NCBI RefSeq assembly: GCF_903772925.1
Contig: NZ_LR812090.1
Span: 2,748,333 to 2,812,332 of the forward strand
DNA length: 64,000 nucleotides
Origin: Alteromonas macleodii
GTDB taxonomy: Bacteria > Pseudomonadota > Gammaproteobacteria > Enterobacterales > Alteromonadaceae
Reading direction: 5' to 3'
Of this stretch, positions 1-14,970 are shown in pieces. The notes below the pieces were generated by a model. It made no database searches, was not told where the DNA came from, and was given only the letters and a program-made list of their open reading frames with translations. The translations under genes and the position numbers were made by a program. Numbering within the stretch: the stretch's first letter is position 1; the number at the start of each line of letters is the position of its first letter.

Positions 1-323
1 GGAGCTTGCGAACCTCCTAATTGATGCGTTTTATATATTTTCACTCATCGTATATTGAATATCATCATGAGGTGGAACGAACTGGAGTAATAAGCTATTT
101 CATGATGAGAGTACTGGCACACCAATCACAGTTTTCCTGTACTAATCTCCCATCTACAGGTAAAGATGACGACTAATATATTACGTAAAACCAAAATAAT
201 TCCTCCGTTTAACTTTAACACGCTAGCCCACTCTGAAAGCCACCTGTAATATAGGGTAATGTGTAGAGCTAATTTGTCTTATATCACGTCAATTTATGCG
301 AACAAGCATCTAAAGGAATAGCT
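1..323. other. Non-coding left edge, nothing recognised
   Basis: No convincing reading frame, RNA gene or IS end is visible in these 323 bases. The last part must contain the promoter and leader of the gene starting at 324. The stretch is AT-rich and may continue an intergenic region outside the window. Confidence 0.4.
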
Positions 324-1211
324 ATGGCAGCCAAATCAACTATCACTCATCAATATGATTTACAAATGACAGTCATAGACATCGTGGCATTGCCTGAAGA
401 ACGCTGCGTGGCCTTGAGTTGGAGCCAAGATAGTGGGTATCAATTTATTGCGTTACAAGAAGGTAACTTTGTTCCTCTTTCCTACACGATATCGTATGAC
501 TTAGAAGAACTCTCATGTGCTGCCTTGTTTAAAACTACATCTGGATTCGGCTGTGTATTCCCCGATAGTGTTGTTACCTATACGCTCTCAGATAGTCACT
601 TTCAAACATATCCTTTCGCCGAACCGTTTCCAATGGATGCTGCAAACCGTTCAACGTCACCGGTAAAGGCTCACATGGATGAACACACTGGTACAATCCA
701 CGTAATTTTCGAAGATTTCTTTTATAAAAGACGAGGACGGTTTATTTCAAAAATAAGTTTAAATAACAACCTTGCTCATTATTCACCATTGTATGCTTTT
801 CCGTTCAACACAGCTTGGTATCACGAATGTAGTGACATCTGTTTTGATAAAAGGCCTTTTGTGCTCGCCATTAATTGCCCATCACTATGGCACAAAAGAG
901 AGCCGTGCCCTTCGCGATCAACGCACCTAACGGTGATCAATGATGATGGTATCTCTAACGTGACTTCGACTGAACACGGCCATGGGAGCTTTTCTTCAGA
1001 TAAACAACACCTGATGGTTAAAACAATCTTCAGTCCCTATAGCATTCATTTTTATTCTCTATCGGGTGATAAAGCATTTGTTCTAAACTTAACACCCAAG
1101 CGGGTACTGGGAAACATTGATAAGAAGTGGTTGACACTCTTCGATAAATTTAACGACACTTTATGGCTTGCTCGCGATTATGATGTAACTCAGGTAAAGC
1201 TCTTGCGATAA
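324..1211 (+). CDS. Hypothetical protein, possibly beta-propeller-like
   Basis: A 295-residue protein of no family I recognise. It starts at an ATG preceded by AAAGGA at good spacing. It has no signal peptide or membrane segment. The chain is rich in short hydrophobic/aromatic beta-strand-like stretches separated by polar turns, which would suit a WD40- or Kelch-like propeller, but no diagnostic repeat can be read by eye, so this is only an impression. It is followed by about 280 non-coding bases and then an IS1202-like element, and lies in the accessory region next to tRNA-Pro. Function unknown. Confidence 0.6.
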   Translation: MAAKSTITHQYDLQMTVIDIVALPEERCVALSWSQDSGYQFIALQEGNFVPLSYTISYDLEELSCAALFKTTSGFGCVFPDSVVTYTLSDSHFQTYPFAEPFPMDAANRSTSPVKAHMDEHTGTIHVIFEDFFYKRRGRFISKISLNNNLAHYSPLYAFPFNTAWYHECSDICFDKRPFVLAINCPSLWHKREPCPSRSTHLTVINDDGISNVTSTEHGHGSFSSDKQHLMVKTIFSPYSIHFYSLSGDKAFVLNLTPKRVLGNIDKKWLTLFDKFNDTLWLARDYDVTQVKLLR

Positions 1212-1400
1212 ACGCCTTACAATGCTTCGAACATAACTCTGCCAACTTCATTACACCGCTACGTTGGACTCAAATTAAGTAAAAATATGGGCAGTCCGTA
1301 AAAGGAAAGCTTTTATCGGACGAGTAAAAGTGAGTTATTGTGGCTATCTCGACAGACTCCATTGCCCCTGACGCGGTTATCTAACTGAGTTATGTCAGAC

Positions 1401-1430
1401 GTCCGCTTTACGCTCATAGCGGCCTGTCAG
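1401..1430. repeat. Intergenic imperfect hairpin repeat, copy 1
   Basis: GTCCGCTTTACGCTCATAGC followed by GGCCTGTCA. The arms CCGCT and AGCGG can pair. A close relative lies at 3968-3998 on the other side of the IS, sharing GTCCGCT.TACGCTCATAGC and a nearby CTGTCA. This looks like a dispersed intergenic palindrome rather than part of the insertion sequence, because it lies outside the target duplication. Confidence 0.45.
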
Positions 1431-1475
1431 GTAGAGTCTAAACCTATTCATAGAAACTGTCAGTTCAGATATGAG

Positions 1476-1491
1476 CTACTACAATTTATTA
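1476..1491. repeat. 16-bp target site duplication, left copy
   Basis: The sequence CTACTACAATTTATTA directly precedes the left end of the IS1202-like element and is repeated exactly at 3880-3895 directly after its right end. A perfect 16-bp direct repeat abutting both inverted ends is the footprint of a single, intact insertion event. Confidence 0.92.
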
Positions 1492-1498
1492 TGTTAAC

Positions 1499-1572
1499 AC
1501 CAAGCGATTCTGTCGGTCTTTAATTACCACGCGATTTTGTCGCATTCACTAATTACCAAGGGAATTTGACGG
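1499..1572. repeat. Three 18-bp iterons at the left IS end
   Basis: Copies at 1499-1516, 1526-1543 and 1555-1572 follow the pattern ACCAmGsGAwTyTGwCGs, spaced 27 and 29 bp, about three helical turns' worth, so they would lie on similar helix faces. Two inverted copies occupy the right end. Probable transposase-binding sites. Confidence 0.7.
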
Positions 1573-1625
1573 TTATCTTTTAACCATGTTTCTTCTTTGC
1601 TTTTTGCATAGGAGAGACGCTGAGG

Positions 1626-3161
1626 ATGATCATGTTAAATTCCAAAGCGCAATTGACTGTAGACGTTATTGCCAAGGTTGCTGAGCGCAAGATAACCATT
1701 GCTAATGCCGTCAAACTCCTGAATAAATCCAGACGTACCATTGAGCGTTACTTGAAGCGTTATCGTGAAGTCGGTATTCGTTTTGTGGTTCATGGAAATA
1801 CAGGTAACGAACCAGTCAACAAAACATCAAATTCATTGAAGCAGCAAGTTCAATCACTTATCCGAGAGAAATATTACGATGTCAATCTGCTTCACTTGGG
1901 AGAGTTGTTGCAAGCCAACGAACACATTGAAGTAAAGCGTGAAACTCTGCGTAAGTGGGCGCATGATATTCATCATGTGAAACGTGCTAAACGCAGACGT
2001 GGCCGTGTACACAAGCGTAGAGAGCGTATGGAAAGCGTGGGATTAATGTTGCAAATGGATGGCAGCACACATCGGTGGTTTGGCACCCAAAAGACCTGTT
2101 TGATTGCCATGATTGACGATGCCAACAGCCAGTTGTTTGCCGAGTTTTTTCATGCCGAAACAACCGCTGGCTGTTTGAAGCTACTGCGCTCGGTGGTGGA
2201 GAAAAAAGGCGTATTTAAAACTTTGTATGTTGATCGCGCAGGTATATTCGGTGGACCTAAACGTTGCAACTTCTCTCAAGTACAGCGGGCATGTGAAGAG
2301 CTGGGTATCGAAATTATCTTCGCCAGCTCACCACAGGGTAAAGGGCGAATAGAACGGGCGTTCGATACCTTGCAAGATAGGCTCGTCCCTGAGTTTAGAA
2401 TGCGCAATATCACTGATATGGCAGCGGCCAATGCGTACCTTCAGCATGTCTTTATCCCGCAGGTCTGGCATAAAAAAATGACCGTAAAGCCATCTACGAC
2501 GGATTCTGAATATCAACCGATACCCAATCACGTCAATCTTGATGATATCTGTATAACCAAAGTGCACCGCAAAATCCGCAACGATCATACCTTCACTTAC
2601 AAAGGGCAATTTTACTTTATTGAGTCACCCATAAAACACTCAATTGCCCATCAGAAAATCGAAATCAGAAACGTGATCGGCAAGCAGTTTGATGTCTACT
2701 TCGCAGGTAGAAAACTAACGGTATCACCAGTGATAGAGCCAACGAAAGCGCCGCTAGACAAATCCTATACGACGCACTCAGAAGACATTGAGATACAGAA
2801 AAAACTTGATGTACTGGCGTTGGCAGACAAGCTTGGCAATGTAGCAGAGGCGTCTCGTCTGAGCGGCGTATCTCGCGATACTATCTACCGACACCGAAAA
2901 CTTGTGAAAGAAGGTGGTGCCGACGCGTTAAAGCGCCAAGAACCTCCGAGCCTACATCATAAGAATCGTACTGACAAAGCTACCGAGCAAATCGTAATTG
3001 AGTTCTCGCTAGCCAATCCACATCTTGGTCAAGTGCAAGTGTCACGACTGCTCAAATCTGAGCGGAACGTCACGATACATGCTAGCGGCGTCCGCAATAT
3101 CTGGCTAAGGGAAAAGATGAACACTATGGCGCTGAGAATAGACAAATCATCTGTAAAGTAA
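1626..3161 (+). CDS. IS1202-like DDE transposase
   Basis: A 511-residue transposase with an N-terminal helix-turn-helix (about residues 10-50, KSRRTIERYLKRY), a basic linker and an RNase H-like catalytic core. The likely triad is D145 (QMDGS), D203 (YVDRAG) and E243 (GRIERAF), the spacing and wording typical of ISNCY/IS1202 transposases. The C-terminal ~115 residues hold a second helix-turn-helix (GVSRDTIYRHRKLV) resembling the leader domain of IS481/IS3-type proteins, which I would not expect by default. The start may be the internal ATG at 1632, which has GAGG at better spacing. The frame is uninterrupted, so the element may be active. The next gene starts 5 bp after the stop. Confidence 0.88.
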   Translation: MIMLNSKAQLTVDVIAKVAERKITIANAVKLLNKSRRTIERYLKRYREVGIRFVVHGNTGNEPVNKTSNSLKQQVQSLIREKYYDVNLLHLGELLQANEHIEVKRETLRKWAHDIHHVKRAKRRRGRVHKRRERMESVGLMLQMDGSTHRWFGTQKTCLIAMIDDANSQLFAEFFHAETTAGCLKLLRSVVEKKGVFKTLYVDRAGIFGGPKRCNFSQVQRACEELGIEIIFASSPQGKGRIERAFDTLQDRLVPEFRMRNITDMAAANAYLQHVFIPQVWHKKMTVKPSTTDSEYQPIPNHVNLDDICITKVHRKIRNDHTFTYKGQFYFIESPIKHSIAHQKIEIRNVIGKQFDVYFAGRKLTVSPVIEPTKAPLDKSYTTHSEDIEIQKKLDVLALADKLGNVAEASRLSGVSRDTIYRHRKLVKEGGADALKRQEPPSLHHKNRTDKATEQIVIEFSLANPHLGQVQVSRLLKSERNVTIHASGVRNIWLREKMNTMALRIDKSSVK

Positions 3162-3166
3162 TCAGG

Positions 3167-3805
3167 ATGTTGAAAATCGGACTTGAAACTGTATTTATAT
3201 ACAGTTACTTTAGGATTGTTAATTTTAATGATCCTGAAGGCGCACATGTTTTGAAATTTACGATGATATATGGTCCATCTGGAGTAGGTAAGGAAAGTGT
3301 TGCTAGGGAGCTGGCAAAAAGAAAAAACTGGCGATTGTTTCCACAGCATTTGGCCTTCGACATTTCGTGTGCAGTGATCGGATTCGGTAATGATGGCTTT
3401 GAGGCATATCAGCGTCAGACATGCATTGAAGCCTTCCAAACGCTGATCGATAACAACACCAATGGATTGGTGTTTACGTTTTGCTATGTTCACCCCGCTA
3501 GTAACTATTTCATTAACGACCTGCTTGAAATGTTAGAGCGAAACGACATTAGCCCTAATTTCATAAGATTATCTTGTACTTACGATGAGCACGTATGCAG
3601 AGTTATCGACGAAAGACGGAAAAACACCAACAAGATTCAGTCGAAAGAGTACCTTGACAATTATCTAGATAAATTTGATTTTTCAACTGATATACCAAAG
3701 GTAAAAACATTCCATTTAGACAATACAGGAATGTCTATTAAGGCAACTGCGGCAGAGATTGAACGCTACCTAGCCACGACTACGGAGAAAAGTCTATTGT
3801 CATAG
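3167..3805 (+). CDS. P-loop kinase-like passenger gene of the IS
   Basis: A 212-residue protein inside the IS ends, 5 bp after the transposase and probably co-transcribed. It has a Walker A motif GPSGVGKES (about residues 35-43) placed as in small P-loop kinases (shikimate/zeta-toxin/AAA_33-like), and an ERRKN segment that could form the arginine-rich lid. No substrate signature is recognisable. The true start is uncertain: the first ~31 residues look atypical, and a TTG at 3251 behind GAAGG, or the ATG at 3263, would place the P-loop at the N-terminus as usual for such kinases. Not required for transposition by any known mechanism, so a cargo gene. Function unknown; resistance, toxin-like or regulatory phosphorylation are all possible. 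Confidence 0.7.
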   Translation: MLKIGLETVFIYSYFRIVNFNDPEGAHVLKFTMIYGPSGVGKESVARELAKRKNWRLFPQHLAFDISCAVIGFGNDGFEAYQRQTCIEAFQTLIDNNTNGLVFTFCYVHPASNYFINDLLEMLERNDISPNFIRLSCTYDEHVCRVIDERRKNTNKIQSKEYLDNYLDKFDFSTDIPKVKTFHLDNTGMSIKATAAEIERYLATTTEKSLLS

Positions 3806-3879
3806 CCTCAAACCGATGCTAATTTCAAAGCGTCAAAATCGCTTGGTAGTTAGACCGTCAAGTTCCCTTGGTTATCACA

Positions 3880-3895
3880 CTACTACAATTTATTA
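3880..3895. repeat. 16-bp target site duplication, right copy
   Basis: CTACTACAATTTATTA, identical to 1476-1491, directly follows the right end GGTTATCACA of the element. Confidence 0.92.
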
Positions 3896-3967
3896 CTGTG
3901 ATTTTCATTGCCTCCCCTTTCTCTTGAAAAATCATATTCAGTGTTTTAATGGGACGAGATGTTAGAT

Positions 3968-3998
3968 GTCCGCTCTACGCTCATAGCCGACTTCTGTC
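3968..3998. repeat. Intergenic imperfect hairpin repeat, copy 2
   Basis: GTCCGCTCTACGCTCATAGC followed by CGACTTCTGTC. It matches the copy at 1401-1430 and can fold through GTCCGCT against AGCCGAC with one mismatch. The two copies lie in the interval that was one intergenic region before the IS inserted. Confidence 0.45.
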
Positions 3999-4041
3999 AC
4001 TCAAAAGTGCGGCTACGAAGTATTCCGGAATTCGCGACTTT

Positions 4042-5061
4042 CTATGTTTGATATAAATAATTATTAAGCACTTCAACTAACTCAAGTGCTTCACTTTTTG
4101 ACAGATAAGGTATCTTTACAGTCCTAGCCCAAAAGAAAGTTTTACCCGTTTTTAGTTTCACTTGTGAAAAAGGCATAGCCAACATTCTGTTATCCTTCCG
4201 GTTCGGGGTAGGAGTCAAAAATTCTACATCTCGATACAGAGTTTCACTGTCTAGAACTTTAATCTCACCTTTTACTTTTGCGGCAGCAATTAAGCCGCAC
4301 CATTCGTGCGAAAAGAAAACAATATCATCTACATGAATATCGTGAACAAAATTCTTTGCGTCACCATATGCTTCAAGACGACTATTATCTATCATCGACC
4401 AAATAGAGTTCTCATCCCAACGACGATTTGTGTCGAATATTACGCCTTTCACAACTCTTGGGTTTTTGTGTTGATCATGTGGAAGTGCAAAGAATTCAAA
4501 GTAATTTTCTCCAGCGAGTTCATAAAACCTATATGGTAGGTAATAAATAGAAATACCGTTCTTCTTCCAGTAATCAACGTGAGAAATTAGTGATTGATCG
4601 GCTGCACTGCCGATAACTAATAGATGTTGTTTATTGTTCATTTTTTCAGGCTCTAGTTCGTGCTCAAGGCCGAAAGCTTCTTTGTGAGCTTGAACTAGCG
4701 ACGTTTCGTTTTGACTATGCCGTATAAATTTTTCTTCTAATTTTTGGTAGCTCCATTGACCAGCGTTTTGCATGTATCTTAGAGCTTGATTGACGGCGTC
4801 TTCCCCATCAGTTGAACGCTTTAAGCTAAATAATAATAATTCACCAATTTCATTGAGAGCATATATATCCGCTCCTACTGGCCGCTGTTTTCGCTGAAAC
4901 GCAGGCATTAATCTAGCTTCTTCAAACAATACATCTAAAATACTACTTGCAATTAAGTTCTCTAGATTATCCGCAAGCTTTCCAAAACTCGAAAAGTCTT
5001 TGAACTCCAAAGGTTCTAATTTCTTAAAAACGGTGGCTTGTTCTTCTATTTTGTAGAGCAT
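4042..5061 (-). CDS. Predicted PD-(D/E)XK-like nuclease with possible PUA/EVE-like C-terminal domain
   Basis: A 339-residue protein, starting at the ATG at 5061 behind AAGGAG; an in-frame upstream ATG lacks a ribosome site. Residues about 25-105 resemble the NucS/DUF91 type of restriction-endonuclease fold: GADIYALNEIGELLLFSLKR followed by a VNQALRYM helix. D65 and K81 fit the catalytic pattern, but the usual glutamate of the E-x-K motif is a serine (S79), so activity is uncertain. Residues ~135-175 continue in the NucS-like manner (LLVIGSA..., GISIYYLPYRFYEL). The last ~130 residues (VDDIVFFSHEWCGLIAAAKVKG) have the look of a PUA/EVE/ASCH nucleic-acid-binding fold; this is a weak assignment. 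It is divergent from a WYL regulator with an operator-like repeat between them. A restriction-type defence effector is the working hypothesis, not a demonstrated function. Confidence 0.6.
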   Translation of the reverse strand: MLYKIEEQATVFKKLEPLEFKDFSSFGKLADNLENLIASSILDVLFEEARLMPAFQRKQRPVGADIYALNEIGELLLFSLKRSTDGEDAVNQALRYMQNAGQWSYQKLEEKFIRHSQNETSLVQAHKEAFGLEHELEPEKMNNKQHLLVIGSAADQSLISHVDYWKKNGISIYYLPYRFYELAGENYFEFFALPHDQHKNPRVVKGVIFDTNRRWDENSIWSMIDNSRLEAYGDAKNFVHDIHVDDIVFFSHEWCGLIAAAKVKGEIKVLDSETLYRDVEFLTPTPNRKDNRMLAMPFSQVKLKTGKTFFWARTVKIPYLSKSEALELVEVLNNYLYQT

Positions 5062-5121
5062 TTTTGCACTCCTTCGAATGATCATTCAGTAAAATAAGAT
5101 AAGGTATAGTGATTACAAGGC

Positions 5122-5138
5122 GCGACAATATGTGTCGC
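5122..5138. promoter_or_regulatory. Candidate WYL-regulator operator, site 1
   Basis: Perfect inverted repeat GCGACA-N5-TGTCGC in the divergent intergenic region, 20 bp before the regulator start codon and 61 bp before the nuclease-like gene. It follows a possible -10 box TATAGT (5105-5110) by 11 bp, so a bound protein would cover the transcription start. A near-identical repeat lies at 6183-6201. Confidence 0.6.
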
Positions 5139-5158
5139 ACGTGTAAGGACGAATTGAG

Positions 5159-6178
5159 ATGAGTCAGATAACAGAACGGAATACGCTAAGTCGCCAGTGG
5201 GAAATCTTGAGACTCTTACCTTCAGTTGGCGTAGGTATATCGGCCAGAGAACTAGTGAAAAGGCTTACAAGCTTAGGTTTTAATGTTTCAAAGCGTACTG
5301 TAGAGCGAGATTTAAATGAGCTGTCTCGACAGTTTCCCTTGCTCTGTAACGACAAAAGTAGACCTTATGGCTGGCGCTGGATGGATAATGCTTCGTTTGA
5401 TATACCTAATCTCAGCATCAGTGATTGTGTTTCCCTGGCAATAACCGAAGAAGTTGTAGCTCCACTACTGCCACCCTCGGTTTTAAGACCATTAAAGCCA
5501 CGTTTCGAATATGCTAAAAAACATTTGCAAGAAGCGAATAGAGATCATGCTCTTGCTCAATGGACGGATAAAGTCGCCATTCGAACACCATCAATGCCTT
5601 TACTCCCTCCAGCTATTGACGGACAAGTCCTTAACATTATCCAGAGTGCTCTGCTAGATGATAAGCAAGTAAAAGTTGTTTATTCGGGTGTTTGGGCAGA
5701 AGAGGCTAAAACACTCGTGTTACACCCCCTCGGGTTGATTCAGCGAGGTAAGATACTTTATTTAGCTGCCACAGCATTTAGCTACAGTGATATCCGTTTG
5801 TATGCGTTACAGAGAATAAATGCCGCTGAACAGCTGGAGGACAATATTGATAAGCCAGTAAATTTTTCGTTGCAACATTATATCGATTCTGGTGCTGCTG
5901 AATTTAGTTTGAGTGGTGACATTGCTTTTGAAGCTCGAATTCATCGTTCGGTCATCAACTATCTTTTTGAGACTCCGCTATCCCATGATATGAAGGTTAA
6001 AGAAACTAATACTGACTGGCTTAACCTTACTGCCACCGTCAAGGATTCTTGGCAGTTCAGATGGTGGCTACGTTCACAAGGGAGCAGTATTGAAGTGCTC
6101 GCGCCTACGAATTTGCGACAAACAATTAAAAATGAAGTCACCGCATTATCCAATTTGTATAAAGTAAATGATTTTTGA
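5159..6178 (+). CDS. WYL-domain transcriptional regulator
   Basis: A 339-residue regulator. Residues ~10-75 form a DeoR-type winged helix-turn-helix (ISARELVKRLTSLGFNVSKRTVERDLNEL), followed by a middle linker and a WYL-type Sm-like domain at ~155-230 (KVVYSGVWAEEAKTLVLHPLGLIQRGKILYL is split over this span, then RLYALQRI), and a C-terminal WCX-like extension. The family (for example BrxR and CapW) is known for ligand-responsive control of phage-defence loci. The gene is divergent from the nuclease-like gene and 72 bp upstream of the UDG-like gene, and both flanks carry a GCGACA-N5-TGwCGC repeat. Most likely a repressor of its own locus. Confidence 0.85.
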   Translation: MSQITERNTLSRQWEILRLLPSVGVGISARELVKRLTSLGFNVSKRTVERDLNELSRQFPLLCNDKSRPYGWRWMDNASFDIPNLSISDCVSLAITEEVVAPLLPPSVLRPLKPRFEYAKKHLQEANRDHALAQWTDKVAIRTPSMPLLPPAIDGQVLNIIQSALLDDKQVKVVYSGVWAEEAKTLVLHPLGLIQRGKILYLAATAFSYSDIRLYALQRINAAEQLEDNIDKPVNFSLQHYIDSGAAEFSLSGDIAFEARIHRSVINYLFETPLSHDMKVKETNTDWLNLTATVKDSWQFRWWLRSQGSSIEVLAPTNLRQTIKNEVTALSNLYKVNDF

Positions 6179-6182
6179 ACGC

Positions 6183-6201
6183 TGCGACAAGTTATGACGC
6201 A
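6183..6201. promoter_or_regulatory. Candidate WYL-regulator operator, site 2
   Basis: Inverted repeat TGCGACA-N5-TGACGCA with one mismatch pair, the same half-site and the same 5-bp spacer as the site at 5122-5138. It lies just after the regulator stop codon and about 50 bp before the next gene, where it could control that gene separately. Confidence 0.55.
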
Positions 6202-6250
6202 GGTTAGATGTAAGTTTTGTGTTTAAGTTGAAAGGATAAAGGATTAAGTA

Positions 6251-6979
6251 ATGACGAAGCGCCATTTAAATGAGAAATTCAAACAATTTGCATGTTCCCA
6301 CTACGGCTGTGATGGTGGAAATTTAGATTCAAGTGTTTGGGTATGTGGCTTGGAATGGGGAACGGAGTTTAAAGACTTGGCTGATCTAGAAAAGGCAATG
6401 GAGGGACCTTTCAATGTGGGCAACTGGGATGGACAGGTACAAGAGCGTCTTAAATATCAATACAATAATAAGATTGCTTGGCTATACAGTTATCTCTATG
6501 ACTGGGAACATGGGCATAAAGAACAAGCTGTTAAACACAAACTTATGTGCTCGGATGGCATTGGATTTAAGATGAACGCTTTTCCTATTTCTTTCAAAAA
6601 TCGCTCCAGTGTATCTTGGGATAGCGATATGGCTAAGCTCATAGGACTGCATTCTTTCGACGTTTATATAGAATGGTGTATTTCACATCGAGGGCGTTTC
6701 TTTCAAAGCTTAGTAAAAAAACATAGTCCGCGAGTAATAGTATGTACCGGCAAAGGCTCGATGATGTCCTTTTTTCGCTTTTTCGACTGCGATTTGACCA
6801 CTGTAGACGACGGTGAAATGTTCAATGTTGCGCGTTGCAATGACAATAACACTCTGGTATTTGTTGTCCCATTCTTTGGTGGTGCTTCGGGTATAAATAG
6901 CTTCGACAAAATGGCTACGCTGGCAAGTAATATATCTAAGTACGCTGATAATGCCTTGGGCTCAACCGACTGGAAGTAA
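6251..6979 (+). CDS. Uracil-DNA-glycosylase-superfamily-like protein (tentative)
   Basis: A 242-residue soluble protein, start behind AAAGGAT. It is not a family I can name, but the order of motifs recalls the UDG fold: an early VWVCGLEWGTEF (motif A-like, with the acidic residue after a glycine), a central LNAFPI-like strand (here MNAFPISF), a VIVCTGKG strand, and a late PFFGGASGINSF loop where UDGs carry motif B. The classical HPS of motif B is absent. Alternatives are an uncharacterised nucleotide-binding alpha/beta protein. Its position behind the WYL regulator and the operator-like repeat at 6183-6201 suggests that it belongs to the same module as the nuclease-like gene. Confidence 0.5.
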   Translation: MTKRHLNEKFKQFACSHYGCDGGNLDSSVWVCGLEWGTEFKDLADLEKAMEGPFNVGNWDGQVQERLKYQYNNKIAWLYSYLYDWEHGHKEQAVKHKLMCSDGIGFKMNAFPISFKNRSSVSWDSDMAKLIGLHSFDVYIEWCISHRGRFFQSLVKKHSPRVIVCTGKGSMMSFFRFFDCDLTTVDDGEMFNVARCNDNNTLVFVVPFFGGASGINSFDKMATLASNISKYADNALGSTDWK

Positions 6980-7234
6980 AGGAGCATGCGAAACCTGAGT
7001 ATACACTTTGCTTTTTAGGCCTCTGCCTTTTGCGATGGAAAGTATATCGCCTTAGGGTCTGCACTGCGCACAGAAACGCAGCAGGAAAAATCATGTAAAC
7101 ACGTAAACTTATGACATTTAAATATCTTTCAGGTTAGGTCTCAAAGCACGTGTGCGAGCTCTAGCTCAGATATAAGCAACTACAGCTAAACGCGCAATCT
7201 AAAAATTGAAATAAATGGTTTTATGTTTACTGGA

Positions 7235-7262
7235 TGAAAAAAGGGCTGCAAAGCAGCCCTTA
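7235..7262 (-). terminator. Rho-independent terminator overlapping a stop codon
   Basis: On the minus strand AGGGCTGC-TTT-GCAGCCCT is followed by a run of T (7235-7240 read as A on the plus strand). The stem overlaps the stop codon of the minus-strand gene that ends at 7260. Confidence 0.8.
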
Positions 7263-7589
7263 AAGTAGTTCAACCTGCTCAGGCCATTCATCAATTGCTT
7301 CGGCTGAAAAGTAACGATGTTTCGTTACACCGAAAACATTTTCAAACTCTCCATCATCGACTTCATCTGAATTGATAAAGCCAACGATTTGTAGCTCGAA
7401 TAGTAAGAACAATAAGCATCGTTCAGATGGCTCGAAATATTTCTTCCTGAGCTCTTCTGGAAGCTGATTTGCGAGACCGTCTGAGATAACAAAACCATTC
7501 GTAACAAATTGCTCGTTCTTATGTTCGTAAACATAATCTAGGGTTTCTGGATTGAAAGGCTCTTCATCATTAACGGGGGACATCCGCAT
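7260..7589 (-). pseudogene. Hypothetical gene truncated at its 5' end by the ISL3 element
   Basis: The open frame encodes 109 residues, but its first ~11 codons (start at 7589 or 7583) are written in the left inverted repeat of the IS at 7558. The native part, from about residue 12 (FNPETLDYVY), is acidic and ends PEQVELL, with its own terminator overlapping the stop. So the original N-terminus has been lost and replaced by a chance IS-derived start. The missing 5' part is not seen right of the IS. The protein family is not recognised; an immunity- or regulator-sized small acidic protein. Whether the chimeric frame is expressed is unknown. Confidence 0.55.
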
Positions 7590-8857
7590 TCATTAAACTG
7601 ATTTTGCGAAGAATCATTTAATGGAGAGTACAGATGTCCCACGCAGGTACTATTTTAGGCATAAGTGAGTTAGAAATAGAACGTGTTCATCGACATGATT
7701 TTATTGAAGTGTGGGCAAAGCCCACTAAAAAGCCGCTATGCAAGCATTGTGAGAGTCGACATTTACGCATAAAAGCCACACATAAGCGCACTGTGAAGCA
7801 CACGCGCCAAGGTAATCAGGTGCTAACGCTACATTTAAAGGTGCCTAAATATCATTGTCGATGCTGTGGTCGTTATTTCAGGCACCCTTTTGTTGGGATC
7901 CGGCCACGCTACCGGGCATCGGAGTGCTTTCGCTTAGAAGTCTTTGAGGCGCATCACGGTGGTGTTACGCAACGTGGTATCTCTCGCACACATCGCATTA
8001 GTCCCACTACGGTAGAGCGTTGGTACCAATCACACATCAGCCAAAAATATAAAGAGATTATCAGTCGACCCTGCCCAGAGATGTTGGGGATAGATGAACA
8101 CTTTTTTACCCGTAAGAAGGGTTATGCGACGACGTTTGTAGATTTACGACATCGTAGTGTGTTTGATGTAAAACTGGGACGTTCTGAATTAAGTTTACGC
8201 TCGTACTTGCGCCACCTTCCCAATAAAGAGAACGTTAAGCTCATCGCGATGGACTTATCGGAAACCTATCGTGGTATTGCCAAACGCTATTTCCCTAATG
8301 CTACGATAGTCGCTGACCGTTTTCATGTAGTGCGCTTGATAAACCATCATTTCTTAAAAGCGTGGCAGCAACACCATCCTGAAGGACGTAAGAATCGGGG
8401 TTTACTTAGTTTGATGCGACGACATCAATGGCATTTAAGCGAAGAGAATAACAGCAACCTACAACGCTACTTAGTTGACTATCCAGTGTTAAAAACACTG
8501 TATGAGGTCAAACAGAAGCTCATCAGGTATATGCTGTTAAAGACTATGAATGAAAAACGAATGGAGAAGACATTACCGAGGTTCTTAGACTTGCTTGAAC
8601 AGTTACATCACAGTCCACTTCGTGCACTGGCCAAAACCTTAACTTCGTGGTTGCAACCTATCATCGCCATGTGGCGCTTTACACGAAACAACGGGATCAC
8701 TGAAGGCTTCCACAACAAAATGGAAATGATATCGAGAAGAGCGTATGGTTTTAGAAACTTTGAAAATTATCGAATAAGAGTGATGACCCATTGCGGATGG
8801 GATGGTGTTATCAATCGTGTAAGGTGAATGCTGATCCCCCGTTTATGGGGTAGAGCC
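7558..8857 (+). mobile_element. ISL3-family insertion sequence
   Basis: The 1300-bp element runs from GGCTCTTCATCATTAACGGG (left) to the inverted counterpart ending GGGGTAGAGCC (right); the ends share GGCTCT, ACGGGGGA and GCATTCA in order. It contains one intact transposase. The expected 8-bp target duplication is not visible: GATTGAAA left does not match GAAAATTA or GACAATTA right. The last 96 bp are duplicated in tandem (8858-8953). Confidence 0.85.
7634..8827 (+). CDS. ISL3-family transposase
   Basis: A 397-residue transposase starting behind GGAGAG. The N-terminal zinc-binding module has C36/C39 (CKHCES) and C75/C77/C78 (HCRCCGRYF), followed by a helix-turn-helix (~residues 110-135, GGVTQRGISRTHRISPTTVE). 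The DDE core shows D154 (GIDEHFF), D228 (VADRFH) and a late glutamate in NGITEGFHNKMEMISRRAYG, the classic ISL3 signature. The length is close to the family norm, and the frame is intact. The last ~21 codons and the stop lie in the tandemly duplicated segment, so a second copy of the protein's C-terminal coding end follows the gene. Confidence 0.93.
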   Translation: MSHAGTILGISELEIERVHRHDFIEVWAKPTKKPLCKHCESRHLRIKATHKRTVKHTRQGNQVLTLHLKVPKYHCRCCGRYFRHPFVGIRPRYRASECFRLEVFEAHHGGVTQRGISRTHRISPTTVERWYQSHISQKYKEIISRPCPEMLGIDEHFFTRKKGYATTFVDLRHRSVFDVKLGRSELSLRSYLRHLPNKENVKLIAMDLSETYRGIAKRYFPNATIVADRFHVVRLINHHFLKAWQQHHPEGRKNRGLLSLMRRHQWHLSEENNSNLQRYLVDYPVLKTLYEVKQKLIRYMLLKTMNEKRMEKTLPRFLDLLEQLHHSPLRALAKTLTSWLQPIIAMWRFTRNNGITEGFHNKMEMISRRAYGFRNFENYRIRVMTHCGWDGVINRVR

Positions 8858-8953
8858 GAAAATTATCGAATAAGAGTGATGACCCATTGCGGATGGGATG
8901 GTGTTATCAATCGTGTAAGGTGAATGCTGATCCCCCGTTTATGGGGTAGAGCC
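8762..8953. repeat. 96-bp tandem duplication of the IS right end
   Basis: The segments 8762-8857 and 8858-8953 are identical as read. Each contains the transposase C-terminal codons, its stop and the right inverted repeat, so the element has two consecutive right ends. Divergence resumes at GACAATTATTGG after 8953. Confidence 0.9.
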
Positions 8954-9033
8954 GACAATTATTGGACAGTTTTGGGACGCTTATTTCGCGAGCAATCAAT
9001 GAGCGGGGTAAGTCATTGAAAAATATGAGAAGT

Positions 9034-9110
9034 TGGTCGGTGTGAGAGGATTTGAACCTCCGACCCCTGACACCCCATGACAGTGCGCTACCAGGCTGCG
9101 CTACACACCG
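9034..9110 (-). tRNA. tRNA-Pro (GGG anticodon)
   Basis: Read on the minus strand, the 77-nt cloverleaf begins CGGTGTGTAGCGCAGCCTGG and ends CACACCGACCA with encoded CCA. The D-loop AGCGCAGCCTGGTAGCGC, anticodon loop around ATGGGGT (anticodon GGG) and T-loop GGTTCAAATCC are clear, closely matching the gammaproteobacterial proline GGG tRNA. Its 3' end points to the accessory region at 1-9000, the usual orientation for an island inserted at a tRNA 3' end. Confidence 0.95.
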
Positions 9111-9126
9111 ACCGAAAGAGCGAGTA

Positions 9127-9154
9127 AGTCTACTCAAATTTGTTCACAATGCAA
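9127..9154 (-). promoter_or_regulatory. Likely tRNA-Pro promoter
   Basis: On the minus strand TTGCAT (9149-9154) and TAGACT (9127-9132) are separated by 16 bp and lie 17 bp upstream of the mature tRNA 5' end. Confidence 0.4.
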
Positions 9155-9246
9155 CGGAATTTAGCAATAAGCCTGTTTAAGCGCTCAATTGCTAACCATC
9201 TTTGCAAATTTCTGCATTAAAACACCTAGTTGCCGCTTTTTTGATA

Positions 9247-10683
9247 TCAGGCCAAGGTAACGTAGCACACCGCAGTTACGACTAGCGCCACCAGCAGGTT
9301 CAACATTACTCCTTCTCTTGCCATGGTTTTAATATCGAACTTTTCAGTTGAGTACGCAATGGCGTTAGGTGCTGTTGCTACGGGCAACATAAAAGCACAA
9401 CTTGCGCTAATGGCCGCCGGTATCATAAGTAATTTAGGGTCAACGCCTACCGCCAGACCTGCTGCGGCCAATATTGGCATTAGCAATGTAGATGTTGCTG
9501 TGTTTGAAGTAATTTCCGTGAGGAAAGTTACGAACAAGCAAATGCCCAGTACAAGTAGTAAAACGGGTAAGGTTGCAAGCCCTGTTAACCACGAGCCCAT
9601 CAGCACACTTAAGCCTGAAGACATAAATGCTTTTGCAATACAAATACCGCCCGCAAACAAAAGCAACATTCCCCATGGGATATCGTTAGCAGTTTTCCAA
9701 TCTAGTAGTTTGTCGCGGTTGCCTTTTGCGTCTACTTCACCGTTATCATTGCCGCTATTGGTGAAAAACATGGCGGCAACACCCGCTACGGCTATAGTGC
9801 TATCACTGATAGTAGTTACCCCTATCCATGCAGTCCAAAAAGGTCTGAATATCCACGCCATTGCAACCGTTCCAAAAATGGCAAGTACACGCTTTTCGGC
9901 TTTCGTCCAGGTGCTTGGTATAGGTAAATCGATGTTTCCCACTTCTTTTATACCGCGTGCTAACCATAAAGCCATAATCGGCACACCAAGGATCACAATG
10001 GGTACACCCGTTTTCATCCAGTCGATAAAGCTGTATTCAACACCTAGTGTTTCTTCATATACGCTCATGAATATAATATTCGGTGGTGTGCCAATTGGCG
10101 TGCCTACCCCACCTAAACTTGCCGAATACGCAATACCCAGAATAAGGGCCACGCCAAATCGCGGGTTATCTACTGCATTAATAATGGCGATAGCCATTGG
10201 CAACATCATTAAAACTGTAGCCGTGTTACTAATCCACATACTAAGTACTGCAGTTGTCAGCATGAAGCCCAACACCAGTTTAAGCGGGCTGCCGCTGCCT
10301 GTTACACGCAGCATGTAAATAGCAAATCGCTTGTGTAAATTAGCGCGCTCCAACCCTTTTGACAGCATAAAGGCAGCCATTAATAATATAATGACATGAC
10401 TTCCTAACGCTGACGCAGCTTCACTGTGTGACAGCACACCAAATAGCGGAAACAGCGCGAAAGGTAAAAGTGAGGTAGCGGGAATGGGAAGTGCTTCAGT
10501 TACCCAAAGTATCGCTACAAATAGTGTGATCGCAGCAGTAAAGATTATTTCGCTAGGCTGATCTACAGCCCACAACCCCATGCCACCCAAAACAGCGGCA
10601 ATAAGCGCGAAAAGAATAATGCTGTTTTTGCGTGTTGGCTTTCGTTGTTGAATATCTGAAGAAGGTTCAGGATTTGTATGCAT
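9247..10683 (-). CDS. DASS-family (SLC13/INDY) Na+:anion symporter
   Basis: A 478-residue polytopic inner-membrane protein with about 11 hydrophobic segments. Both substrate/sodium motifs of the divalent anion:sodium symporter family are present: SNTATVLMMLP in the N-terminal half and SNTATSTLLMP in the C-terminal half, plus the GGVGTPIGTPPN hairpin loop. The family imports dicarboxylates (succinate, malate, fumarate), citrate or sulfate with sodium; the INDY-like motifs favour C4-dicarboxylates, but the substrate cannot be fixed from sequence. Start ATG lies behind GGGAAG. It stands alone between tRNA-Pro and dcd. Confidence 0.9.
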   Translation of the reverse strand: MHTNPEPSSDIQQRKPTRKNSIILFALIAAVLGGMGLWAVDQPSEIIFTAAITLFVAILWVTEALPIPATSLLPFALFPLFGVLSHSEAASALGSHVIILLMAAFMLSKGLERANLHKRFAIYMLRVTGSGSPLKLVLGFMLTTAVLSMWISNTATVLMMLPMAIAIINAVDNPRFGVALILGIAYSASLGGVGTPIGTPPNIIFMSVYEETLGVEYSFIDWMKTGVPIVILGVPIMALWLARGIKEVGNIDLPIPSTWTKAEKRVLAIFGTVAMAWIFRPFWTAWIGVTTISDSTIAVAGVAAMFFTNSGNDNGEVDAKGNRDKLLDWKTANDIPWGMLLLFAGGICIAKAFMSSGLSVLMGSWLTGLATLPVLLLVLGICLFVTFLTEITSNTATSTLLMPILAAAGLAVGVDPKLLMIPAAISASCAFMLPVATAPNAIAYSTEKFDIKTMAREGVMLNLLVALVVTAVCYVTLA

Positions 10684-10718
10684 TGCGCTTCCCGTTACTA
10701 ATAGCTTTATTATAAGTG

Positions 10719-10736
10719 CCAGGGCAGAAACCCTGG
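10719..10736. terminator. Short GC hairpin downstream of dcd
   Basis: CCAGGG-N6-CCCTGG between dcd and the transporter gene. There is no clear T tract on the minus strand, so a weak or rho-assisted terminator at best. Confidence 0.3.
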
Positions 10737-10814
10737 TTATTGCTTTTATATTTTCTATCAGTAATTAGCGGGAAACGCACGAGGCTTTTCCAAAAAAATT
10801 GTTTTTAGGTTGTT

Positions 10815-11408
10815 TTACTTACTTTCGTCGTCTGACGAAATACGGCTGGCTACTGCACCGGCTTGATCCTTATATTTCGCATCAACTCTGGCGTTATAAG
10901 GTTTTTCAGCTGGGGCTGATAACACTTCAAAGCTTAGTGCGCCTATTTTCATCTTAGGGCGAAGCGCTAAAGGTAATTTACCGCTGTTGTAAAACTCAAG
11001 AACGATGTTACCAGACCAACCTGGGTCGATTCTATGAGCCGTCACGTGAACCATTAAACCCAAACGCGCCAGTGAAGAGCGCCCGTCTAGCCAACCAACG
11101 ATATTATCCGGCAGCGTTACTGACTCGTGAGTAATGGCCAGTGCTAATTCGCCTGGGTGTAAGAAAAAGGCTTTACCTTCTTCTAGTTCAATTTCGTCGC
11201 TCATTACGTGGTCCAGCGCTTCTTGTACCTGCGCTTTTGGCCCACTTAAATCAATAAACGGTGCTTGATGGTCTTCAAACACACGAAATTTGTTACCAAG
11301 GCGGATATCTACCGTTACACCGCTAATCTGATCATAATTAGGTGTAGGCTCAATTTTTATTTTCCCATCTTGAAGATGTTGGTAGATATCGCGGTCGCAC
11401 AAGCGCAT
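10815..11408 (-). CDS. dcd: dCTP deaminase
   Basis: The 197-residue protein is full length for Dcd (E. coli enzyme 193 residues). It deaminates dCTP to dUTP, feeding dUMP and then dTTP synthesis; it acts as a cytosolic trimer. Family signatures: MRLCDRDI at the N-terminus, the substrate/catalytic segment [13 protein letters not shown], followed by [12 protein letters not shown] with the catalytic Glu in IVLEFYN. Start ATG has GAGGAA upstream. It lies downstream of mrp in the same direction with a 249-bp gap, as is common in gammaproteobacteria. Confidence 0.97.
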
Positions 11409-11657
11409 GGTGTATTCCTCATTTCGTTAGGCCGCTATTATGCGTATGTCACCGCATGCATTCAACTGCTCAAAGGCTTGTTTTATCTGCTTTTGCGCAA
11501 TTTTTATAAAGTTTTAGCGAATTTTAAATTTAAGCGCCAAAACTTGCCTCTATTTTTCCTTGGTTCAGCATCTAACTAGGCTTTAAACTAAACATTCAAC
11601 ACTATTGTGCGTCACCTGTTATTACTTAACCAAATCTCTTTCAATCTTTTTCCTTTT

Positions 11658-12764
11658 TCAATCTTTCCCAATAATGCCAATTGGGTCGCCTTTGATGTGT
11701 TTAACCGCCCCTTTGCGTGGCTCAACGGTAAGGGCTAATTGCATAGACAATGCCCGCGCAGCTTCACGGTAACTTTCACTTAAAGCACCGTCGGGTGAGG
11801 CAAGTAACAAAGGTGTACCTGCATCGCCATGCTCGCGAATATGAATATCAAGCGGTAGCTGTCCCAAAAGCGGCAGTCCGTGGCGTTCGGCAAGCGCCTC
11901 GCCCCCGTCTTTTGAAAACACATAGTCTTTGGTGCCGCAGGCTCTGCATTGGTAATAGCTCATGTTCTCGATAAGCCCGAGTACTGGCACATCGACCTTT
12001 TCAAACATGCTTATGCCTTTTTGAGCGTCGGCTAGTGCTAAGTCCTGCGGCGTTGTAACTACCACTGAAGCAGTCAGCGGTACTTGTTGCGCCATCGTCA
12101 GTTGGATATCGCCTGTTCCTGGTGGCATATCTACAATTAAGTAATCCAGCACGGGCCACAAAGTTTCATCTAGCAACTGCTTTAATGCCCTGCTTGCCAT
12201 TGGCCCTCGCCATACGGCCGCGTCTTCCTGAGGCACTAAATAACCTATTGAGTTCGCCACCAGCCCATGCGACATAAGGGGCTGCATGTGCTTATTATCT
12301 TCGCTTTCAGGGTGTGCGTCGGGGTTGCCCAACATAATGGGAATAGACGGCCCATAAATATCGGCATCTAAAATACCTACTTTCGCGCCTTCTTGCATAA
12401 GCGCAAACGCTAAATTGATACTGGTTGTCGACTTACCTACACCGCCCTTGCCAGAGGCCACTGCTATGATGTTTTTAATGTTGGTGACCGGTGCTACTTC
12501 AGTTTCTCCACTGGCAACGTTTTGTTTAAACGTAAGCTGGTCATCGCCAAGCTTCCCTTTTAGCTGGTTAAGCGCTTCTTGTTTAAGCGTATCTAACTGT
12601 GTAGCAATGCAAAATGGCAAAGTAACCGTAACGCCTGCATCTTCATTTTCTGGCTGACTAAAAGCACACCAAGGTAAGGTATCGTCTACGTCTAGCGAGA
12701 AATACTTGGCTAAAATAACAGCAACCTTTTGCGTTAGCGGCTCTGCTTTGCGAGAAAAGAACAT
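11658..12764 (-). CDS. apbC: Iron-sulfur cluster carrier ATPase Mrp/ApbC
   Basis: A 368-residue P-loop ATPase of the MinD/Mrp type that carries and delivers Fe-S clusters. I chose the ATG at 12764 (MFFSRKAEP) with AAGG upstream; the frame extends 30 codons further up but that part overlaps the metG promoter region and reads as non-coding. A degenerate N-terminal domain (1-90) precedes the deviant Walker A GKGGVGKS (residues 105-112), Walker B DMPPGTGD and the cluster-binding C-x-x-C (QCRACG). It is divergent from metG, a conserved arrangement in Enterobacterales and Alteromonadales. Confidence 0.95.
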   Translation of the reverse strand: MFFSRKAEPLTQKVAVILAKYFSLDVDDTLPWCAFSQPENEDAGVTVTLPFCIATQLDTLKQEALNQLKGKLGDDQLTFKQNVASGETEVAPVTNIKNIIAVASGKGGVGKSTTSINLAFALMQEGAKVGILDADIYGPSIPIMLGNPDAHPESEDNKHMQPLMSHGLVANSIGYLVPQEDAAVWRGPMASRALKQLLDETLWPVLDYLIVDMPPGTGDIQLTMAQQVPLTASVVVTTPQDLALADAQKGISMFEKVDVPVLGLIENMSYYQCRACGTKDYVFSKDGGEALAERHGLPLLGQLPLDIHIREHGDAGTPLLLASPDGALSESYREAARALSMQLALTVEPRKGAVKHIKGDPIGIIGKD

Positions 12765-12872
12765 AAAATGCCTTACTAGTAGTAGAATTGTGTGAATTAC
12801 GAGATGCAAAAAACGCGGTTTTCCGCTAGTATTTGCAGCCATTTTGAAACGCAAAGAATCAATAACGTCATT

Positions 12873-14900
12873 ATGTCAGAAAAACGCCGAATTCTGGTAA
12901 CCAGTGCGTTGCCATACGCAAATGGTTCTATTCACTTAGGTCATTTGCTAGAACACATTCAAACCGACATCTGGACTCGTTTTCAGCGCCTTCGCGGAAA
13001 CGAATGTTACAGTGTTTGCGCCGACGATGCACACGGTACACCGGTTATGCTTAAAGCCCAAGAGCTTGGCATTACACCAGAAGAAATGGTGGCTAGAACC
13101 CGTGCTGAACACCACCAAGACCTTGTTGATTTTCACGTTGATTACGACAACTACTATGTAACCCATTCGCCAGAAAACAAGGCATTGTGTGAAGAAATTT
13201 ACACCCGTTTAGATAATGCGGGCTACATCAGTAAACGCACCATTAATCAGCTGTTCGACCCTGAAAAAGAAATGTTCTTGCCAGACCGTTTCGTTAAGGG
13301 TACCTGCCCTAGCTGTGGTGCAGAAGATCAAAACGGCGACAGCTGTGACGTATGTGGCGCAACGTATAGCCCAACAGAAGTAAAGAACCCGCGCAGCGTT
13401 GTATCGGGTGCTACACCAGTACTACGTGAGTCTGAGCACTTCTTCTTTGACCTGCCAAAGTTTGAAGGCATGTTAAAAGAGTGGATCCGCTCAGGTGCCC
13501 TGCAGGAAGAAATGGCTAACAAGCTGCAAGAATGGTTTACTGAAGGTCTTCAACAGTGGGACATCAGCCGTGACGCGCCTTACTTCGGCTTTGAAATTCC
13601 AGGTGCGCCGAACAAGTTCTTCTACGTGTGGGTAGATGCGCCTGTTGGCTACATGGCAAGTTTCAAAAACTTCTGCGACCAAAACAACTTAGAGTTTGAT
13701 GACTTCTGGAAAGCAGACTCAGAGGCTGAGCTTTACCATTTTATCGGTAAGGATATTACTTACTTCCACTGCCTATTCTGGCCTGCCATGCTAGAAGGTG
13801 CGGGATACCGTAAGCCTACTGGCGTAAATATTCACGGTTTTGTAACCGTAAACGGTGCGAAAATGTCAAAGTCGCGCGGTACCTTTATTAAAGGCCGTAC
13901 CTACCTAGACCACCTGAACCCAGAATATCTGCGTTACTACTTTGCGTCTAAGTTGGGCGACGGTGTTACCGACATCGACCTTAACTTTACTGACTTCGCA
14001 CAAAAAGTGAATTCAGACCTAGTAGGTAAAGTGGTTAACATTGCAAGCCGCTGTGCAAGCTTTATCACTAAGCGTTTTGACGGAAAGCTGTCTGAAAACG
14101 TGATTGAGCCAGAACTTATTGCTGAGTTCCAAAACGCATCTGAAAGCATTGCTGCACTTTTCGAGAAGCGTAAGTACCACCAAGCCGTGCGCGAAATCAT
14201 GGCTCTTGCTGATAAAGCGAACCAGTTCATTGATAACAATGCACCTTGGGTAACTATTAAAGACGAGACTAAGCAGCAGTTCACACACGATGTGTGCTCG
14301 CTAGGTATCAACATGTTCCGTCTGTTGGTAATTTACTTAAAACCTGTACTGCCGGTACTTGCAGAAAAAGCAGAAGAATTCCTAAACGACTCGTTTGACT
14401 GGAATTCACTGCAAACCCTATTGAAAGGCCACGCCATCAACAAGTTTAAGCCGATGATGCAGCGTGTAGAAATGGAGAAAATCGACGCCATGGTTGAAGA
14501 TTCAAAAGAAAGCCTAGCGCCAGCAGCACCGGCAATCGACCCAGACAGCCCGCTTGCTAAAGACCCTATTAGCGACACTATCTCGTTTGATGAGTTCGCC
14601 AAGGTAGATTTACGTATTGCACGTATCGCTAAAGCTGAACACGTAGAAAAAGCTGACAAGCTTTTACGTTTAGAACTAGATTTAGGCGGCGAAACTAAGC
14701 AAGTTTTTGCAGGTATTAAGTCGGCCTACTCGCCTGAAGCCCTAATCGGTAAACATACGGTAATGGTGGCGAACCTCGCTCCTCGTAAAATGCGCTTTGG
14801 CATGAGTGAAGGCATGGTATTAGCCGCGGGCCCTGGCGGCGACGAGCTATACATTCTTGAGCCGCACGAAGGTGCAAAGCCGGGTATGCGCGTTAAGTAA
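12873..14900 (+). CDS. metG: Methionyl-tRNA synthetase
   Basis: A 675-residue class I synthetase, close to the E. coli length (677), starting at ATG 12873 ([10 protein letters not shown]). HIGH-type motif HLGH lies near residue 23; the zinc knuckle is CPSCG...CDVCG in the connective insertion; the KMSKSRG loop follows; the C-terminal ~105 residues form the EMAP-II-like tRNA-binding/dimerisation domain ([11 protein letters not shown]...). It charges tRNA-Met and initiator tRNA. Upstream in-frame ATG codons at 12792 and 12804 add residues not found in the family and are rejected. A strong terminator follows. Confidence 0.98.
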
Positions 14901-14926
14901 GCTTCAAAGCGAACATATAAAAAAGT

Positions 14927-14970
14927 AAGGTGACAGTCAGCGCTATTAAGCGACGGGGTGTCACCTTTTT
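14927..14970 (+). terminator. metG terminator
   Basis: AAGGTGACA pairs with TGTCACCTT across a 23-base loop region, followed by TTTTT. It lies 27 bp after the metG stop. Confidence 0.8.

Follow-up and report, generated by a model that had tools for sequence, protein, structure and literature searches.

Three genes beside tRNA-Pro in Alteromonas macleodii

We analyzed a 64,000-nucleotide stretch of Alteromonas macleodii DNA (assembly GCF_903772925.1, contig NZ_LR812090.1, positions 2,748,333 to 2,812,332; hereafter the window), which is part of an Alteromonas genome consisting of a single 4.67 Mb contig (G000). An accessory stretch to the left of a tRNA-Pro gene (9034–9110) holds three adjacent genes, encoding a nuclease-like protein with NucS-type and EVE domains, a WYL regulator, and a protein with a uracil-DNA glycosylase (UDG)-superfamily fold. 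An original prediction made from the sequence alone had described this gene set beside tRNA-Pro, and our analysis confirms it. The features of the locus are:

4064–7009: segment shared with Alteromonas sp. C1M14 (G051), the three-gene cassette; two blastn pieces, 4064–5074 and 5095–7009
4042–5085, minus strand: protein with a NucS-type PD-(D/E)XK domain and an EVE/YTH fold, PDC-S11 family; key residues D73, S87, K89, Q100 and Y104
5062–5158: divergent promoter region of the nuclease and WYL genes, with a TATAGT −10-like element common to G051 (by inspection)
5121–5139: operator-like site 1, CGCGACA-N5-TGTCGCA, located after TATAGT; it begins 38 bp ahead of the WYL start
5159–6178, plus strand: WYL-WCX regulator, BrxR/CapW type; WYL 6.1e-12 and WCX 2.7e-10, both above cut-off
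6183–6201: operator-like site 2, TGCGACA-N5-TGACGCA, just past the WYL stop and beginning 68 bp before the UDG-like start
6251–6979, plus strand: putative glycosylase effector with a UDG-superfamily fold; E35 and N109 are invariant in its clade; a homologue of XpsR

The WYL regulator matches PADLOC WYL models, and helix-turn-helix (HTH) domains were detected in it below cut-off only, at residues ~15–60 (for example, HTH_DeoR at 18.3 bits versus 21). Its PDB matches at E ≤ 0.01 were five WYL-type sequences only (0.0029–0.0081), none of which was identified as BrxR or CapW.

Operator-like sites

With up to two mismatches, the inverted repeat TGCGACA-N5-TGTCGCA occurs twice in the window versus 0.21 occurrences expected, and two or more were reached in 2 of 100 shuffles. 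Both sites are kept in G051. When 17 Alteromonas loci were scanned, using WYL starts placed by hand (4 of the 17 not on a start codon) and one of the two WYL genes of locus L077, a site was present within 200 bp upstream of the WYL gene in 15; the two misses were L070, in which the site precedes the partner gene instead, and L083. Across 18 loci picked for holding a WYL or UDG-like gene, the site precedes 24 of 251 open reading frames (ORFs): 12 WYL genes, 8 partners (the nuclease, three UDG-like genes, an AAA ATPase and three FtsZ-like genes) and 4 neighbors divergent from WYL or FtsZ-like genes. At up to three mismatches there was no site in L010, L024, L025, L033, L035 or L037, one stray match each in L023 and L057, and three matches in L058.

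A related form of the site is present in G090, one of two genomes that we presume to be Pasteurellaceae-like. The variant WGCGACA-N5-TGTCGYW occurs, with up to two mismatches, at four places in 12.5 kb, giving 8 matches on the two strands versus 0.17 expected, a number reached in 0 of 200 shuffles. Three of these places are intergenic and one is near the called start of an OGFr ORF, and a further variant site (one mismatch) lies ahead of an AAA gene. In the genome G032, the UDG-like gene has no WYL neighbor yet retains site 2, and similarity to the window starts there (6182). Because a WYL paralogue sits near a perfect site elsewhere in that genome, control of the G032 UDG-like gene in trans is possible.

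Inverted repeats of this kind are thus found in the promoter shared by the nuclease and WYL genes and ahead of the UDG-like gene, and they recur upstream of related WYL genes and their partners. The three genes therefore probably form one regulon, and at the level of sequence their shared regulation is well supported. The original prediction of one regulated module is thus upheld at the sequence level, by the shared operator-like sites, by the gene order of G051 at another locus, and by the pairing of WYL and UDG-like genes in distant genomes.

Recurrence and distribution of the cassette

All three genes are found in the G051 genome as well, arranged as in the window, with DNA that is 82–85% identical and with similarity confined to window positions 4064–7009. 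Its cassette locus is unrelated to that of the window, the flanks being peptidase-like and leuD-like genes (named by inspection). In three relatives that have the same leuD region without the nuclease gene, the match to G051 runs from the leuD side to 13–15 bp past the nuclease stop and then ends; because it stops there, one border of the cassette, as judged from these alignments, abuts the nuclease end. The comparison did not yield a clean empty site for the G051 cassette: the similarity of the three relatives is limited to the leuD side, and ~1.4 kb of flank gave no match to the peptidase side.

The genes are patchily distributed. Among 59 Alteromonas genomes, the UDG-like gene is present in 3, the nuclease gene in 3 and the WYL gene (at ≥85%) in 2; the UDG-like gene was found in 7 of 394 genomes of the order and in 1 of 369 of the class, the latter being the window's own. 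At four of the nine UDG-like loci whose neighborhoods were covered (XpsR clade, discussed below, excluded), namely those of G000, G051, G090 and G375, a WYL gene lies beside the UDG-like gene or in the same island. The WYL proteins of G090 and G375 are 98% identical to one another and 31% identical to that of the window (E 5e-40), such that two Pasteurellaceae-like genomes combine the UDG-like family with operator variants and a distantly related WYL protein. At a further locus (G191, L037 5431–6659), an OGFr (Pfam) and UDG-like pair lies within a ribosomal protein cluster, between L16- and L14-like genes (by inspection).

We rejected the idea that the three genes always travel together. Co-occurrence, which the original prediction had proposed as a check, holds in G051, but the set is incomplete at G032, G015, G432, L023 and L058. 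Because other neighbors are found elsewhere while WYL and UDG-like genes recur, those two look like a recurrent core, and the nuclease like a replaceable partner.

The UDG-like protein and its relationship to XpsR

Structure comparison with Foldseek gives the 6251–6979 protein a UDG fold, with 4ZBY as the best structural match, and its closest named relative is from Alteromonas macleodii. E35 and N109 are invariant in the UDG-like clade (19/19) and are presumed, from the strand order, to lie where the catalytic residue (after strand 1) and the base-recognition residue (after strand 2) would be expected. In sequence searches the protein had no PADLOC, Pfam or NCBIfam match at E ≤ 1, nothing in PHROGs, no match in PDB with either the protein or its profile, and no match at E ≤ 1 in phage records; in viral contigs, five pattern matches yielded no confirmed relative. 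A BFVD search gave two matches at E ≤ 0.001, both UDG-annotated phage proteins (TM 0.39–0.45) and nothing specific. The original statement that this is not a named system was therefore nearly right: it holds for the UDG-like protein, but the nuclease belongs to PADLOC family PDC-S11 and the regulator is covered by WYL models.

Two Cupriavidus plasmid proteins, both overlapping genes annotated as transcriptional regulator, matched the single UDG-like query (E 7e-8 and 5e-9), and a profile that included them retrieved 87 further proteins (P0137–P0223). Many of these come from Cupriavidus and some come from Ralstonia, and several of the 87 bear names such as XpsR family or transcriptional activator of eps genes. 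Aligning the UDG-like profile (A1; the window protein plus 13 of 14 matches, fragment P0003 excluded) to XpsR-type proteins by hhalign, with the Cupriavidus seeds out of the query, gave a probability of 97.9 (E 3.5e-13, 220 columns). A Cupriavidus XpsR-type homologue adjoins exopolysaccharide genes, and XpsR is said, in excerpts of PMC12928067, to bind the eps promoter. These findings favor an explanation in which the UDG-like protein is a non-enzymatic DNA-binding regulator like XpsR and the cassette is regulatory, perhaps acting on surface polysaccharide and so indirectly on phage adsorption. We consider this explanation unlikely, though the foremost of the competitors, given that, among 21 XpsR-type proteins (alignment A4, 21 of the 87), none keeps E35 and three keep N109, and that no polysaccharide genes were seen by inspection in window positions 1–16000, the G051 locus or five Pasteurellaceae-like loci. 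Because the two residues are invariant in one clade and changed in the other, the clades probably differ in function. A simple reading of the sequences would make XpsR a non-enzymatic relative of UDG-fold proteins, and its homology to a UDG-fold protein suggests that XpsR-type eps regulators have this fold. Our literature search found no paper joining the whole words "XpsR" and "glycosylase".

The nuclease-EVE protein

The 4042–5085 protein, whose gene probably starts at 5061, matches the PADLOC candidate PDC-S11 (PDLC04916; E 4e-18). In profile alignments, the PD-(D/E)XK region of its family (alignment A2, n = 57; the window protein plus 56 of 120 matches listed, of 489) aligns to NucS 2vld and weakly to 5gke; the NucS_C domain is found in 52 of the 57 members, though the window protein itself has no match at E ≤ 0.1. 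The C-terminal domain of the family has an EVE/YTH fold. The structure model of the window protein is poor (mean pLDDT 58.9, residues 1–97 below 50), and only its C-terminal fold match was used. Structure prediction, another check proposed originally, recovered a UDG fold and an EVE/YTH fold.

The original call of a nuclease was right as to the domain, but the window copy lacks an intact D-ExK catalytic motif. D73 and K89 are invariant across the 57 aligned sequences, and Q100 and Y104 are retained; position 87, which is Glu in 54 of 57, is Ser in the window copy. This position falls on NucS E174 in the profile alignment (numbering counted along the 2vld chain), and excerpts of PMC7343888 give D160, E174 and K176 as conserved motif residues of NucS. 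In all, four otherwise conserved acidic positions are altered (E38A, E65R, E71G and E87S), and the same four changes occur in cluster P0015, which is 97% identical to the window nuclease.

The gene is open, with a ratio of nonsynonymous to synonymous substitution rates (dN/dS) versus G051 of 0.30, compared with 0.14 for WYL and 0.17 for UDG-like; by this measure the nuclease is still under purifying selection, weaker than that on its two partners. Its dN is raised in the window lineage (0.170 versus 0.106 to outgroup G432; 0.193 versus 0.136 to outgroup G015). Because the E-x-K glutamate is lost, selection is weaker and the lineage is faster, the window nuclease is probably inactive in this strain. 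The open gene under selection, the retained D73, K89, Q100 and Y104, and the occurrence of the same changes in P0015, which argues against a one-strain error, would instead fit a reading in which the nuclease-EVE protein remains able to cut modified DNA and acts as the true effector, for which the glycosylase-like protein supplies abasic sites. With the E174 equivalent replaced, three further acidic positions changed and dN raised, we judge this the least probable of the explanations considered.

Neighborhoods were covered for five close-relative nuclease loci, with 15 remoter matches in the order left out. On a Caballeronia plasmid (L058 6972–9071), a NucS-EVE gene directly follows a TIR-domain gene.

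Related WYL islands

A WYL island with OGFr, Sir2 and other genes is covered by loci L034, L086 and L088 (G090) and L036 (G375) and has operator-like sites. In G090 it contains UDG-like, OGFr, two Sir2, PP2C, GmrSD-type, NT5C and LRR genes, a weak second UDG-superfamily match, and an AAA ATPase gene. The 685-aa AAA ATPases of L088 (8824–10881) and L070 (4000–6057) are 35% identical over 667 columns, and each is preceded by a site of this type, in one Pasteurellaceae-like and one Alteromonas genome, respectively; that of L070 matches PADLOC IetA (6e-41). An FtsZ/tubulin-like gene is convergent with WYL in 13 of the 15 Alteromonas WYL-paralogue loci fetched (L071–L082 and L084; by inspection), exemplified by L073 5490–7750 (Pfam Tubulin, 1.4e-35). 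The site precedes WYL in all 13 FtsZ-linked loci and the called FtsZ-like start in 3.

Locus L083 of G015 (5392–7174) has a different WYL gene overlapping one whose UDG-superfamily match is weak and below cut-off (E 0.0053), and this pair is ~10 kb from a NucS-EVE gene on the same contig. The second UDG-superfamily candidates, L034 9867–10499 and L083 5392–6135, were weakened by Pfam UDG matches below cut-off only and a weak match to each other.

Genomic setting

The surroundings of the three genes contain the following features:

1626–3161, left of tRNA-Pro: transposase-type HTH gene
3167–3805, left of tRNA-Pro: P-loop kinase-like ORF
Listed between the three genes and the ISL3 transposase: 109-aa ORF
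7634–8827, left of tRNA-Pro: ISL3 transposase
9034–9110, minus strand: tRNA-Pro (GGG), integration hotspot, right of the accessory region

A second copy of the tRNA-Pro end is present on the same contig and strand in at least 14 of 59 Alteromonas genomes, and in G032 copies lie on both sides of an integrase gene; from these sequence repeats, tRNA-Pro is an integration hotspot in Alteromonas. The transposase-type genes and the hotspot would also suit ordinary island cargo, serving DNA repair or a stress response with no anti-phage role, and other WYL regulators, PafBC and SiwR, govern DNA-damage or stress responses according to excerpts of the literature. Purifying selection on the WYL and UDG-like genes, the presence at other loci of GmrSD-type, Sir2 and AAA (IetA-like) genes next to site variants, and a spread too patchy for housekeeping repair argue against such cargo, which we hold to be improbable, ranking between the XpsR-like regulator and the active nuclease.

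A candidate anti-phage cassette

With a probability of roughly 0.5, we interpret the locus as a mobile, repressor-controlled phage-defense cassette in which the UDG-like protein is the main effector and the nuclease is disabled. The course of events that we infer, from repressor action and ligand release to base excision, target and defense, is as follows. In an uninfected cell, the WYL protein would bind the TGCGACA-N5-TGTCGCA sites and repress two promoters, the divergent one of the nuclease and WYL genes and that of the UDG-like gene. Binding of a ligand derived from infection or damage to the WYL domain would release the repressor, and the UDG-like protein would then be made and, as a Brig-like glycosylase, take a modified pyrimidine out of phage DNA, so that abasic sites are left behind. 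Cleavage of modified or damaged DNA was probably the former activity of the NucS-EVE protein; because its catalytic motif is broken, it would now do no more than bind DNA or modified bases as a partner, with the glycosylase-like protein as the main effector.

Several observations weigh against this interpretation. Many UDGs carry a histidine motif, and PFFGG replaces it in the UDG-like protein. The best five Foldseek matches have TM-scores of only 0.40–0.57, none of the 19 clade members matches the Pfam UDG model at E ≤ 10, and XpsR proteins, which are homologues, have been described as regulators of transcription. No WYL gene is present in the stretch covered at five of nine UDG-like loci (G032, G191, G278, G240 and Shewanella insulae), an XRE-like regulator standing in its place in G278 and G240, and both partners are absent beside the nuclease gene in three of five close-relative loci (G015, G432 and the Caballeronia plasmid). 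Finally, at up to one mismatch, ten genomes together contain 12 sites versus 8 in the reversed control (G000 4/3, G051 2/1, G032 3/3, G015 0/1, G191 1/0, G432 2/0, and 0/0 in the remaining four). The bare motif is not specific genome-wide, and the case for it rests on promoter position.

More broadly, and more tentatively than for the cassette itself, the data may point to a WYL-regulon class of anti-phage islands, marked by TGCGACA-N5-TGTCGCA, across Alteromonas and Pasteurellaceae-like genomes. Its effectors would include a new clade of UDG-superfamily glycosylases, NucS-EVE, FtsZ-like proteins, AAA ATPases and Sir2/OGFr/GmrSD, and XpsR would be a catalytically dead relative of the glycosylase clade turned transcription activator. 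The promoter signature could be used to find more WYL-controlled defense genes, provided that gene position is considered too, as the motif by itself is not rare genome-wide; the UDG-superfamily branch beside Brig1 and Brig3, with its conserved presumed active site, is a candidate anti-phage glycosylase; and a UDG fold is suggested as the structural origin of XpsR.

Comparison with known systems

The nuclease matches PDC-S11, yet without the E-x-K glutamate; PADLOC PDC entries are, in excerpts of PMC12813430, unvalidated candidates. Its family resembles NucS/EndoMS in the PD-(D/E)XK region and differs by the extra C-terminal EVE/YTH-fold domain and, in the window copy, by Ser for Glu. XpsR, the Ralstonia/Cupriavidus eps activator, is homologous to the UDG-like protein over the 220 aligned columns but differs at E35 and N109 and in its neighborhood.

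Brig1 and Brig3 are UDG-superfamily proteins that restrict phages by modified-base excision (excerpts of PMC11078745 and PMC13160076), and Brig1 homologues are located in defense islands, one near a SIR2-domain protein. The UDG-like protein is likened to them by fold, with 4ZBY as best match, and by their published descriptions in part, not by sequence. It has Asn at the presumed base-recognition position where Brig1, as excerpted, has Glu, and N109 would suggest a base resembling uracil or thymine as target. The term WYL occurs 0 times in the text covered of either Brig paper. Among the literature matches listed for WYL, DNA glycosylase and phage, no such pairing was apparent by title.

BrxR and CapW are WYL repressors acting on BREX, CBASS and further defense islands. 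According to excerpts of PMC9122601, PMC9122589 and PMC9122588, taken jointly, BrxR recognizes 10- and 11-bp repeats with 5-bp spacers and has a second box elsewhere in its island, and CapW recognizes palindromes across the −10 element. As far as these excerpts go, the window regulator is similar in its WYL and WCX domains, in the inverted repeat of its own promoter, which has a 5-bp spacer and follows a −10-like element, and in the second site at another gene of the unit. Its site differs in sequence from the Acinetobacter BrxR site printed in PMC9122589, and it is accompanied by UDG-like and NucS-EVE genes instead of BREX or CBASS. An aim at modified DNA, as originally proposed, would fit both folds and the Brig1/Brig3 precedent, and the best-supported analogy is a BrxR/CapW-like repressor set over a Brig-like glycosylase that would act against base-modified phages.

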